This document shows, in pieces, positions 3 through 45,120 of a stretch of 64,000 nucleotides of DNA. This DNA comes from Bacteroidetes bacterium HGW-Bacteroidetes-3. GTDB taxonomy: Bacteria; Bacteroidota; Bacteroidia; Flavobacteriales; Flavobacteriaceae. The DNA lies in NCBI GenBank assembly GCA_002842505.1, contig PHDE01000002.1, forward strand, positions 1 through 64,000, given 5' to 3'. Each line of letters begins with the position of its first letter. Positions within the stretch are counted from its first letter, which is position 1. The position numbers and the translations under genes were made by a program. The notes under the pieces were generated by a model. That model saw nothing but the letters and a program-made list of their open reading frames with translations, did no database searches and was not told the DNA's origin.

Positions 3-275
3 GATCAATTCAATCTAAATTTGCAATTAACCGCAAAGAACCAAGGAAAATACGCAAGGAGCCTTTTTGTTTGATATTTGATTACGCTATTTTCAAAATT
101 CTAAAATCAAAAATCATAAATCGTAATTCATTTTGCGTTAGCGATTGAAGCGGAAATCCTGGCATTGCGATTTAGGATGCTTAGTAAAATATTGCTGCGC
201 TCTGAACGCAATGACAGATTGGAACGGAAAGCGCGACCTGAAAGGAAACGCCAACCAAAAAGGTCGGCAGGCCAA
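3..275 (+). repeat. Interspersed repeat family 2, copy 1
   Basis: Shares atcaattcaatc..aaatttgcaattaaccgcaaagaa, tttgattacgctattttcaaaat, aaatcaaaaatcataaatcgtaattcattttgcgttagcgattg and a terminal cgccaacc with the copy at 27473-27750. Confidence 0.8.
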
Positions 276-4681: not shown

Positions 4682-4900
4682 TTGGTTGGCGTTCCCCCGC
4701 CGAAAAGGCGGGGGCGGGCTTTCCGTTACAAACTTTTTTCGCCAAAAAGCTCAAAAAGGTTTTCCGCTGCAATCCCTAACGCGTATTGATTTACGATCTC
4801 TGATTTTTGATTTACGATTTTAAAATAGCGTAATAAAATGTCAACCAAAACAAAATTGCTCGTTGCGGTTAAATGCAAGTTTATATTGAATTGATTTTTT
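4682..4900 (-). repeat. Interspersed repeat family 2, copy 2 (reverse orientation)
   Basis: Reverse complement matches family 2: ggttggcgttccc, ctaacgcgtattgatttacgat, aaaatagcgtaa, ttgcggttaaatgcaagtttatattgaattgat. Confidence 0.75.
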
Positions 4901-12511: not shown

Positions 12512-13270
12512 ATGAATCCATCAGTTTCCATAATTACCGCTTGTTACAACGCAGCAGATTTTATTGAAGAAACCATTCAATCAGTACAAAATCAGTATTT
12601 TACGAACTGGGAATGGTTTATTGTTGATGATTTTTCTACAGACAATTCTGTTTCCATCATTGCGGAATATGCGAAAAATGATGCCCGAATTAAACTGTTG
12701 CCGCTTAAAAAAAACTCGGGTGCGGCCATCGCCAGAAATATGGGAATTGCCTTGACGAAAGGAAATTATATGACTTTCATTGACGCCGATGATGTGTGGA
12801 AACCGCAATTTTTAGCAGAGAATGTAGCCAGAATATCTAAAACAGAAGGTTTTTTATGTTCCTCTTATGAAATGTATGATGTAACCTTAAAACTAAAATT
12901 GGGGGAATTAATTGTGCCAAAATACGCAACCTATTCAGCCATTTTAAAAACGAACACCATTAGTTGTTTAACGGCATTTATTGATATTTCACGTTTGGGA
13001 AAGGAGTTTATGCCCGAAATTAAATACCGGCAGGATATGGGTTTGTGGTTAAAATACTTAAAAAAAATCAATAGGGTGGAAGGTATTCAAGAAAGTTTGG
13101 CCATTTACAGAATCAGAAAACAATCGCTTTCTAACAATAAAGTAAATTTATTGAAACACCAATGGTCATTTTATAGGGAATTTGCAAATTTATCCATTTT
13201 GCAGTCGTCGTATTATTTTACCCTTTGGATGTTTTACGGATCTAAAAAATACTGGTCGCTTAAAAAGTAG
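12512..13270 (+). CDS. Glycosyltransferase family 2
   Basis: VSIITACYNAADFIEETIQSV, FIDADDVWKPQFLA. Confidence 0.93.
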   Translation: MNPSVSIITACYNAADFIEETIQSVQNQYFTNWEWFIVDDFSTDNSVSIIAEYAKNDARIKLLPLKKNSGAAIARNMGIALTKGNYMTFIDADDVWKPQFLAENVARISKTEGFLCSSYEMYDVTLKLKLGELIVPKYATYSAILKTNTISCLTAFIDISRLGKEFMPEIKYRQDMGLWLKYLKKINRVEGIQESLAIYRIRKQSLSNNKVNLLKHQWSFYREFANLSILQSSYYFTLWMFYGSKKYWSLKK

Positions 13271-13297
13271 GGACAAGTCGCGACTTGTCCGTTCTAA
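13267..13297 (+). repeat. GTAG-headed REP-like palindrome, copy 1
   Basis: GTAG + GGACAAGTCGCGACTTGTCC (13271-13290, perfect) + GTTCTAA. Confidence 0.93.
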
Positions 13298-17458: not shown

Positions 17459-17580
17459 TTGGGCGTTTCCGCCGAAAAGGCGGTCGGGTTTTCCGTTCCA
17501 AACTTTTTTCGCTAAAAAAGCTCAAAAAGGTTTTCACTGCAACCCCTAACGCGAATTGAATTAATAATTGATTTGGTTTT
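17459..17580 (-). repeat. Interspersed repeat family 2, copy 3 (truncated, reverse orientation)
   Basis: gggcgtttccgccgaaaaggcgg, ttttccgttccaaacttttttcgctaaaaaagctcaaaaaggttttcactgcaacccctaacgcgaattg. Confidence 0.75.
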
Positions 17581-23995: not shown

Positions 23996-24466
23996 ATGAA
24001 CACAACAAGTATTGGATTAAACAAAGAAAGAGCAAAAGATTTAAGCAAAAGTTTAAATGTTTTATTGGCAAATTTTCAAGTGTATTATCAAAATTTAAGA
24101 GGCTTGCATTGGAATATCAAAGGAAAATCCTTTTTTGAATTGCATGTGAAATATGAAGAGTTTTATACCGATTCGCAAATCAAAATTGATTTAATAGCGG
24201 AACGTATTCTAACATTAGGAGGAACGCCGTTGCATACATTTCAGGAATACACAGAATTGTCCAAAGTGGCAGTTGGCAAAAATATAACCACTGGTGAGCA
24301 AGGAGTGCAATTGATTGTAAATTCTTTAACGGTACTTTTAAACCTAGAAAGAAATATTTTAAATGAATCTGCGGAAGCAAATGATGAAGGAACCAACGCA
24401 ATGATGAGTGATTTAATTGCGGAACAGGAAAAAACTATGTGGATGTTGAATGCTTGGTTGAATTAA
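23996..24466 (+). CDS. dps: Dps/ferritin-like DNA-binding protein
   Basis: LNVLLANFQVYYQNLRGLHWNIKGKSFFELHVKYEEFYTD, IAERILTLGGTPLHT. Confidence 0.95.
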   Translation: MNTTSIGLNKERAKDLSKSLNVLLANFQVYYQNLRGLHWNIKGKSFFELHVKYEEFYTDSQIKIDLIAERILTLGGTPLHTFQEYTELSKVAVGKNITTGEQGVQLIVNSLTVLLNLERNILNESAEANDEGTNAMMSDLIAEQEKTMWMLNAWLN

Positions 24467-24536: not shown

Positions 24537-24567
24537 GTAGGGACAGGTCGCGACCTGTCCGTTCTAA
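24537..24567 (+). repeat. GTAG-headed REP-like palindrome, copy 2
   Basis: GTAG + GGACAGGTCGCGACCTGTCC (24541-24560) + GTTCTAA. Confidence 0.93.
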
Positions 24568-24673: not shown

Positions 24674-24703
24674 ATTAAATTGACTGTACTATTAAATCAA
24701 CGG

Positions 24704-24874
24704 TAATATATAAGGAAAAGTAAATGTAGTAAACAATTGATTATTACCACATTAGTCTTTTATCTTTTTTCTATATTCTTTCGTCTGGTTAATATGTAAG
24801 GAAAAGAAAATGGGATAGACAACTGATTTCTATCACAATAATCTTTTATCTTTATTCTATATTCTTTCGTCTCG
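24704..24874. repeat. Imperfect tandem duplication, period 86 bp
   Basis: taaggaaaag at 24711/24797 and tctatattctttcgtct at 24770/24856. Confidence 0.9.
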
Positions 24875-25687
24875 TTAATAGATATCCCAAAAAGTACGTT
24901 GCTTGTCCAGTTCTTCTTCCTGTTTTTTATATTCCGCCACTGAAACAACTTTTAAAAATGAAGGATGTTGTTCAATGCCAAACTCAATTTTTTTAACAAT
25001 TTCATCAACAGTGTCATTTTCATAATCAATATCAATGGGCTGTTTAATCACCATAGATTGCAACACATTTCGTTTTTTTATCAGCAGTCCCTTTTTGTCA
25101 TAAGCGCGTCTAAAGCCATCAATAACAATTGGAATCACAATAGGCTTGCAGGTTTTTATAATGTGTGCTGTACCGCGCCTGATTGGTTTAAAAGGTTTGG
25201 TGGTTCCCTGAGGAAAGGTAATTACCCAACCGTCATCCAATGCTTTTTTAATATTGCTGATATCCGACATTTTTACTTGCCTGTTTACATTTTCTCCGGC
25301 ACTTCTCCAGGTTCTTTCTATGGAAACAGAGCCTACATAGGCGAATATTTTTGGCAACAAACCCGATTTCATGGTTTCTGATGCGGCGACATAGTAGATA
25401 TTAAGTTTCGGATTCCAGATATAACCAATGTTTTTTAAAGAATCGACCCTTCCTTTTAATGAAGCATTAAAAACGTGGTACATGGCGGCAACATCGGCAA
25501 AATAGGTTTGGTGGTTGGAAACAAACAATACATTTGTAGGAGGAAGATCCCTAATGATTTCTGAACCTTCAATTTGCAGTTGGTTAAATCGTCTGTACCT
25601 TCCGTGAGAAACAACGCCAATAATTCTGACGAGCCATTTTTTGACAAATAAAATATGTCCGAATGGATTTCTTTTAAAAATTGGCAT
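24875..25687 (-). CDS. 1-acyl-sn-glycerol-3-phosphate acyltransferase (PlsC family)
   Basis: FVSNHQTYFADV (HX4D-like), FPQGTTKPFKPIRRGTAH. Confidence 0.85.
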   Translation of the reverse strand: MPIFKRNPFGHILFVKKWLVRIIGVVSHGRYRRFNQLQIEGSEIIRDLPPTNVLFVSNHQTYFADVAAMYHVFNASLKGRVDSLKNIGYIWNPKLNIYYVAASETMKSGLLPKIFAYVGSVSIERTWRSAGENVNRQVKMSDISNIKKALDDGWVITFPQGTTKPFKPIRRGTAHIIKTCKPIVIPIVIDGFRRAYDKKGLLIKKRNVLQSMVIKQPIDIDYENDTVDEIVKKIEFGIEQHPSFLKVVSVAEYKKQEEELDKQRTFWDIY

Positions 25688-43160: not shown

Positions 43161-44018
43161 ATGATTTCACAAAAACAATTTGAAAAAGAACTTGATATTA
43201 TTATTTCCAATGCCATTAGGGAAGATGTTGGAGAGGGCGATCACAGCTCGTTGGCCTGCATCCCAAAAGAGGCAAAAGGCAAAGCAAAATTACTGGTTAA
43301 AGAAGCTGGAATTATTGCTGGCGTTGAAATGGCAAAAAAAATATTTAGTTATGTAGATGCCGATTTAAAAGTGGAAACATTCATAAACGACGGCGAAAGC
43401 GTAAAATATGGCGATGTGGTTTTTTTTGTTGAAGGAAGCTCTCAATCCATTTTAAAATCAGAACGCCTGGTGCTGAACGTAATGCAGCGAATGAGTGCCA
43501 TAGCCACAAAAACAAAAGAATTCGCCAAATTATTGGAAGGCACAAAAACCAAGATTTTAGACACCAGAAAAACCACTCCGGGCATTAGGGCCATAGAAAA
43601 ATGGGCGGTAAAAATTGGCGGTGGCGAAAATCACAGATTCGCATTGTATGATATGATTATGTTAAAAGACAATCATATCGATTTTGCCGGCGGTGTTTCA
43701 AAAGCCATTGAAAAAACAAAACACTATTTAGAAGTCAATAAGCTGGATTTAAAAATTATTGTTGAAGCTAGAAGCCTTGAAGAAATAAAGGAAATATTGA
43801 AACACGAAGGTATTCACCGAATTTTAATTGATAATTTTGATTTTGGGGAAACTAAAAAAGCGGTTCAATTAATTGGCGACAAATGCCAAACTGAATCATC
43901 AGGCGGCATTAATTTGGAAAGCGCCAGAAAGTATGCCGAATGTGGCGTAGATTTTGTTTCATCAGGCGCTTTAACACATTCTGTGTATAATATGGATTTG
44001 AGTTTAAAAGCGTTTTAA
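43161..44018 (+). CDS. nadC: Nicotinate-nucleotide diphosphorylase (carboxylating)
   Basis: EDVGEGDHSSLAC, NVMQRMSAIAT, ILDTRKTTPGIRAIEKWAVKIGGGENHR. Confidence 0.96.
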   Translation: MISQKQFEKELDIIISNAIREDVGEGDHSSLACIPKEAKGKAKLLVKEAGIIAGVEMAKKIFSYVDADLKVETFINDGESVKYGDVVFFVEGSSQSILKSERLVLNVMQRMSAIATKTKEFAKLLEGTKTKILDTRKTTPGIRAIEKWAVKIGGGENHRFALYDMIMLKDNHIDFAGGVSKAIEKTKHYLEVNKLDLKIIVEARSLEEIKEILKHEGIHRILIDNFDFGETKKAVQLIGDKCQTESSGGINLESARKYAECGVDFVSSGALTHSVYNMDLSLKAF

Positions 44019-44029
44019 TAGTTCGTAAA

Positions 44030-44093
44030 GTAGGGACAGGTCGCGACCTGTCCTTTCAAAAAGTAGGGACAAGTCGCGACTTGTCCGTTCTAA
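44030..44093 (+). repeat. GTAG-headed REP-like palindromes, copies 3 and 4 in tandem
   Basis: GTAG 44030 + GGACAGGTCGCGACCTGTCC (44034-44053); GTAG 44063 + GGACAAGTCGCGACTTGTCC (44067-44086) + GTTCTAA. Confidence 0.95.
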
Positions 44094-44154: not shown

Positions 44155-45120
44155 ATGAGAAAACGCACTAAAGGCATCTTAAGTAAAATTAGAAAATTAA
44201 AGTGGATTATCAAGCTTGGAAAAAACGTTAAGGTTCCGGGTTTAAAGGGTATGTCTGTTTATGAGGTGCTTAAATTATATGTTTTGGGCATTATAAAAGG
44301 AGCGTTAACATCACGCGCCGGCGGAATTTCTTTTAGTTTTTTTATGGCCTTGTTCCCATTTTTATTATTTATCCTTTCTTTAATTCCGTATGTTCCAATT
44401 GATGGATTTCAGCAGGATTTTTTAATTATGATTGAAAGGATATTGCCTCCAAATACGGCCGATTCTTTTCAGTCAGTCATTAATGATATTGTAAATAATA
44501 AATATAGTGGATTGCTTTCATTCGGATTTATTGCCTCCATTTTTTTGATGGCCAACGGCGTAAGTGCCATTTTTGCCGGATTCGAATATTCCTACCATGT
44601 GATAGAAATGCGCAACATTTTACGCCAATATTTTATCTCGATGCTCATTGCAATAATATTGTCGTTAATTTTAGTGATAATCGTTGCAGTTTCTGTTTAT
44701 TTTGAGATTGGAATAAACGATTTAAAGGCGCACGGGTGGCTGGAAGATGATGTTTTTTGGATTGAAAAGGGAAGGTATTTTTTGTTGGTGGCTCTTATAT
44801 TTGTTTCAGTATCAGTATTGTATAAATATGGTTCAAAGGATGTAAAACACAAATCTTTTTTTACGCCGGGAGCTATTTTAACAACCATCTTAACTTTGTT
44901 GATGTTTAAATTATTCGCCATATATGTGCTAAAATTTGCTACTTATAATCAGCTTTATGGTTCCATTGGCACTTTGTTGGTGTTAATGCTTTTTGTTTGG
45001 CTAAACGCCATCATATTATTGTTGGGTTTCGAGTTGAATGCAAGTATCAATAGGTTGAGAAAAAATTATTTAAAAGAATTGAAAGAAAAAGAATTGAAAG
45101 CAAAATTAATTAAAGAATGA
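44155..45120 (+). CDS. YihY/virulence factor BrkB family protein
   Basis: [19 protein letters not shown]; six [48 protein letters not shown]. Confidence 0.9.

Follow-up and report, generated by a model that had tools for sequence, protein, structure and literature searches.

Introduction

What are the short palindromes that recur on one strand of this stretch of Flavobacteriaceae DNA, and what placed them there? The window, by which we mean the whole 64,000-nucleotide stretch of DNA analysed here (contig C145, positions 1-64000), comes from a Lutibacter-like member of the Flavobacteriaceae, the congeners of which are mostly named Lutibacter in public records; one of them, G005, is a public record labelled 'Gelidibacter Bin2_9'. 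The genome amounts to 3.55 Mb in 270 contigs and is 99.9% complete, in a draft assembly with an estimated contamination of 3.95%. An initial annotation of the window had described four GTAG-headed palindromes and likened them to the REP sequences that RAYT (REP-associated tyrosine) transposases mobilise in Proteobacteria. Here we follow these repeats through the genome, the genus and the phylum.

Results

Four palindromes in the window

Exact matches to GTAGGGACARGTCGCGACYTGTCC lie at 13267, 24537, 44030 and 44063, all on the forward strand, just where the initial annotation had seen GTAG followed by a 20-bp palindrome; the expectation for this pattern in the window, from 100 dinucleotide-preserving shuffles, is 0. 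The four copies are as follows.

13267..13294, + strand: REP copy, A-T variant, GTAG-GGACAAGTCGCGACTTGTCC-GTTC; missing from the orthologous gaps that could be read in relatives
24537..24564, + strand: REP copy, G-C variant, GTAG-GGACAGGTCGCGACCTGTCC-GTTC; missing from the orthologous gaps that could be read in relatives
44030..44057, + strand: REP copy, G-C variant, ending in TTTC and not in GTTC; first member of a tandem pair in direct orientation; missing from the orthologous gaps that could be read in relatives
44063..44090, + strand: REP copy, A-T variant, ending in GTTC; second member of that tandem pair; missing from the orthologous gaps that could be read in relatives

The copy at 13267 overlaps the end of an ORF (12512-13270), whose stop codon is the TAG of the foot (13268-13270). 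That at 24537 sits between ORFs 23996-24466 and 24875-25687, and the 44030 copy, with a spacing of 33 bp to its tandem partner, between ORFs 43161-44018 and 44155-45120. The GTTCTAA tail reported for three of the four copies is present as described, and TTTCAAA follows the copy at 44030. The uniform strand is a property of the window and does not extend to the contig: a fifth copy just past the window (C145:69846, L038), with one mismatch, has the opposite orientation. An Rfam scan of the window left the palindromes unmatched and found only Flavo-1 RNAs (RF01705), with three matches above the gathering score at 130-242 (+), 4708-4788 (-) and 17478-17560 (-). The window also holds, at 24690-24880, a second dispersed repeat of about 105 bp, which has at least a dozen further copies in the genome and several in the congener G002; it shares part of its span with an 86-bp unit repeated in tandem (24704-24880) and does not belong to this REP family.

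A 28-nt repeat with two defined ends

The initial annotation had proposed a genome-wide count as a check, and the palindrome proves abundant, with 60 copies at up to two mismatches against 0 for a reversed-pattern control. Alignment of 53 distinct copies in GTAG orientation delimits a unit of 28 nt, GTAG-20-bp palindrome-GTWC, with sharp boundaries, all columns outside these 28 positions carrying at most 0.45 bit. The unit first described, GTAG plus palindrome, thus had both of its parts right and stopped short of the conserved 3' GTWC. The foot columns hold G in 50, T in 53, A in 50 and G in 41 of the 53 copies, the palindrome is nearly invariant (perfect in 37), and the 3' positions +1 to +4 hold G (39), T (43), T or A (28 and 19) and C (43), this last C being far over background (p = 1e-30). 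GTAG, whose conservation was also to be checked, is exact in 38 of the 53 copies and in 37 of the 47 dispersed ones, far above base composition. The two variants with pairing-preserving changes were recovered genome-wide, stem positions 6 and 15 being G-C in 45 copies, A-T in six, G/T in one and T/C in one (Fisher p = 3e-7). As single-stranded DNA the element is predicted to fold as a hairpin, with 8 bp in the stem and CGCG in the loop (z about -4). No T-run follows the hairpin in the aligned copies, where the 3' flank consists of GTWC and then A-rich sequence.

Most copies stand singly; inverted pairs (REPINs) were sought among the genome copies and none was found, and one of the 53 copies is double-footed. 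The tandem pair at 44030/44063 is genuine and not unique, being one of five close groups, all in direct orientation with spacings of 31-51 bp (the others lie on C156, C176 and C247, with a triple on C268). An identity as REPIN or BIME was rejected, the unit not being an inverted pair and the close groups all being direct.

Gene context was taken from crude ORF calls, by which 83% of the same DNA is coding. The copies fall into co-directional gaps (26), convergent gaps (13), divergent gaps (6), 'genic' positions (6) and contig ends (2), so that 45 of the 51 placed copies are intergenic against 17% non-coding DNA; four of the six 'genic' copies lie on ORFs of merely 88-92 codons, which are likely false. 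Within the co-directional gaps, 19 of the 26 copies are oriented with the genes. In seven of the 39 GTAG-footed copies, including that at 13267, the foot's TAG terminates an upstream frame of at least 169 codons; the others, beyond the window, are at loci L003, L028, L029, L031, L035 and L036. Any effects on the host, for instance the provision of stop codons to upstream genes, would be secondary.

A single RAYT gene in the genome

The window has no RAYT gene, as had been noted, and a distant one or a different mechanism had been proposed. A search of the genome with PF01797 gives four Y1 proteins, none on the window contig. Three of them (on C214, C54 and C71) match the NCBIfam IS200 family above its cut-off, and the surrounding DNA read for each of them, 6-12 kb, showed no copy of the palindrome. 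The fourth, at C205:7468-8052(-) (L023), is the genome's only RAYT by family model and motif. It matches PF01797 at that model's cut-off; its score of 52.2 bits against NF047646 (REP_Tyr_transpos), the sole NCBIfam family that it matches at E <= 0.001, is under the equivalog cut-off of 80 bits, and the protein is therefore assigned by homology and context and not as that equivalog. Its sole PDB sequence match is 4ER8, a TnpA-REP. A structure search, run with a model whose confidence is modest (pLDDT 67), gave nothing but Y1 transposases at E < 0.001, including 4ER8. The protein carries the motifs NHIH and YIKRNP; N106 H107 x H109 and Y175 I176 x x N179 are invariant in seven RAYT sequences, while the P of YIxxNP is not.

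The C205 gene proved to be flanked by the repeat, a further check that had been suggested: two REPs precede it at distances of about 160 and about 310 bp, and the gene itself contains, in frame, a decayed REP with 4 mismatches. Relatives likewise have REPs upstream of the gene and within it; in most of those read the internal one is exact and encodes GTGRDLSV. In the structure model of the C205 protein, the REP-encoded stretch falls within a low-confidence segment (45-72). Upstream REPs together with an in-frame internal REP are the signature of TnpA-REP subclass 2.4, and judged by this signature and its motifs the C205 RAYT is of this Cyanobacteria/Bacteroidetes type and not proteobacterial. 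The original reading, RAYT-mobilised REPs with a proteobacterial hallmark, is thus upheld as to REPs with a RAYT and revised as to the kind of RAYT, which moreover lies in a CRISPR-Cas locus. A dN/dS of about 0.10 against G002 and G023, at a dS near 1.1, indicates that the gene is under purifying selection; the RAYT of G005 is frame-broken toward its C-terminus.

Pairing of repeat and transposase across genomes

The RAYT carriers in the genus (G000, which is the genome of the window, G002, G005 and G023) hold 51, 32, 9 and 35 copies, respectively, at up to one mismatch. Among the 21 RAYT-less congeners, 16 have no copy, four (G004, G009, G014 and G015) have 2-3 each and one (G001) has 12; the copies in these last five need RAYT gene loss or decayed remnants. 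At all three window sites the copy is absent from the orthologous gaps of relatives where both flanks could be placed. The flanking DNA there is about 72-88% identical to that of the relatives, and a base-exact empty site, attempted at these three loci, could not be drawn, the intergenic DNA being too diverged.

Since a scan for the exact stem is biased to genomes with an identical stem, the pairing claim uses a phylum sample of 396 genomes searched with a RAYT profile regardless of REPs, 140 of which matched. In the loci read, close RAYTs mostly adjoin this stem (L186-L189, L291-L294 and L297), which is not nearby at L295 and L296; more distant RAYTs are accompanied by different palindromes that also begin with GTAG, such as GGACAACTCATGAGTTGTCC (six copies), AGACAACGCATGCGTTGTCT (six) and GGGCAATTCATGAATTGCCC (four). 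This is the pattern described for other bacteria, in which every RAYT has a REP type of its own (PMC6006769).

Among the matches listed for the 26-mer GTAG-palindrome-GT are Lutibacter, Flavobacterium, Pontibacter, Winogradskyella and others, and also records labelled Uhrbacteria, Roizmanbacteria, Gracilibacteria, Omnitrophota and Nitrospinota. A RAYT of this family was found in 10 of 12 such stem-bearing genomes searched, which were chosen by the identical stem and hold from 1 to 93 copies. Binning errors may explain some of the candidate-phylum records, and less easily one Roizmanbacteria record that is a chromosome record. The same or nearly the same stem stands beside related RAYTs at L274 (G043, Omnitrophota), L276 (G041, Roizmanbacteria) and L277 (G042, Uhrbacteria). 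Candidate-phylum loci with stem and RAYT suggest that RAYT-REP pairs have been transferred between phyla.

A RAYT gene beside cas1-cas2

On C205 (L023, 6260-8052) the RAYT gene, unexpectedly, faces cas2, which is preceded by cas1, and a few bases separate the two stop codons. The tail-to-tail arrangement recurs in Lutibacter, Flavobacterium, Xanthomarina and others.

Loci with a RAYT tail-to-tail to cas2: L023, L184, L186, L136, L137, L156, L272, L291-L295, L330, L339, L344

Such cas2-linked RAYTs make up 17 of the 49 rows examined, 14 of them within 12 bp of cas2; measured between the ends of the two frames, the distances run from -8 to 57 bp. A single clade of 20 rows, with support 100/99, contains all 17. 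The L184 locus, read whole, has the order cas9> - CRISPR array - REP array - RAYT> <cas2 <cas1; at L405, cas9, array, cas2 and cas1 follow in that order without a RAYT. On C204 (L022, 3402-3805), three REPs lie just upstream of cas9 in units about 190 bp apart, and they have flanking sequence in common with the REPs beside the C205 RAYT. C204, with cas9, and C205, with RAYT-cas2-cas1, probably belong to a single CRISPR-Cas locus that is divided between them at the array.

In 80 Flavobacteriaceae genomes with Cas1, the RAYT is in place in 6 of the 28 closest Cas1 rows, a lower bound given that in some loci the contig breaks off right after cas2, and in none of the 52 others. The Cas1 tree requires seven changes of the RAYT-link label, at least four of them on supported branches, and the RAYT and Cas1 distance matrices correlate only moderately (Mantel r 0.53), so that gains, losses or exchanges must have occurred repeatedly. 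On these grounds we rejected a single origin followed by strictly joint inheritance of RAYT and cas2, despite the single RAYT clade. The RAYT is a recurrent but optional neighbour of cas1-cas2, and a partial literature search found no published mention of this link. Hitchhiking of the RAYT beside cas2 is likelier than a functional link to CRISPR adaptation. That this RAYT clade has come to function within the type II CRISPR-Cas systems of Flavobacteriaceae, aiding spacer acquisition or array upkeep, seems to us unlikely; such a recruitment would draw on a single-strand nuclease activity of the RAYT, its tail-to-tail position with cas2 and the REPs between RAYT and CRISPR array.

Discussion

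Our analysis makes it highly probable that the palindromes are non-autonomous single REPs spread by the C205 RAYT, a TnpA-REP of subclass 2.4. This reading draws on the 60 copies against a control of 0, the exact edges, the hairpin, the REPs at the RAYT gene, the pairing in genus and phylum, the dN/dS and the empty orthologous sites. REP mobility would follow by analogy with the characterised REP transposases of E. coli, Stenotrophomonas and Marinomonas (PMC8266576). Like these enzymes, the RAYT would bind the GTAG hairpin as single-stranded DNA, use its catalytic tyrosine to cut close to the foot and rejoin the REP elsewhere, and most copies would survive in gaps after genes.

The same placement would be expected if the palindromes were immobile gene-end signals, either intrinsic terminators or stabilisers of mRNA 3' ends: most copies follow genes, those in co-directional gaps largely share the genes' orientation, and seven supply a stop codon. 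Effects of this kind may be real as side effects. However, the hairpin lacks a T-run after it, on which ground the intrinsic terminator was rejected, six copies lie between divergent genes, the relatives' orthologous gaps lack copies, copy number tracks the RAYT, and further copies of the stem occur both beside the RAYT gene and within it; as the primary explanation, gene-end signals are very improbable. We consider it still harder to believe that the mover is one of the three IS200-like transposases on C214, C54 and C71 rather than the C205 RAYT. They share the Y1 fold and the genome with it, but they score above the IS200 cut-off and have no palindrome in the DNA read around them, whereas the C205 RAYT is surrounded by copies. 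Near invariance and dyad symmetry would also suit a binding site that selection maintains at fixed positions for a chromosomal protein (nucleoid, repair or restriction-type), yet the asymmetric GTAG and GTWC ends are conserved as strongly as parts of the palindrome, the places differ between congeners and 16 congeners have none, and to this last explanation we give almost no credence.

The REP family and its RAYT are a known kind of system, here with a new family member. Subclass 2.4 and its REPs were described by Quentin et al. 2018 (PMC6006769) and equal group 4 of Bertels et al. The present pair resembles them in the NH[IFV]H and Y-I-x-x-N-P motifs, the length of about 194 aa, the occurrence in Bacteroidetes, the GTAG foot and the REPs around the gene and in frame within it. 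It differs in a 3' end of GTWC that is not the reverse complement of the foot, in a stem base of G-C, G-C and A-T where subclass 2.4 has three G-C pairs, and in a RAYT gene that abuts cas2. The accessible part of Di Nocera et al. 2013 (PMC3733652) describes GTAG REPs of other prokaryotes as 20-40 bp long, intergenic and with GTAG at one end; our repeats agree with these in the palindrome, the GTAG end and the intergenic location, mostly in co-directional and convergent gaps, and neither a Flavobacteriaceae family nor this stem is described in that part. A text search of the literature examined here for the 20-mer palindrome found no paper. As with the Pseudomonas REPINs (Bertels and Rainey 2011, PMC3116915), the elements are non-autonomous and RAYT-dependent, with one RAYT per REP type; the REPINs are inverted pairs, whereas here the copies are mostly single and the five close groups all direct.

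In the literature examined we found no biochemistry on the Bacteroidetes-type RAYT subclass, for which this genome offers a REP family with both ends defined (28 nt) and a single identified RAYT. The presence of the 26-mer in Bacteroidota and in genomes with candidate-phylum labels, mostly with related RAYTs, opens the idea of spread between phyla to testing. Specialists should find the CRISPR-linked RAYT clade of most interest, and the linkage of these genes to cas2 bears on the question of why single RAYT genes persist so long in bacteria.
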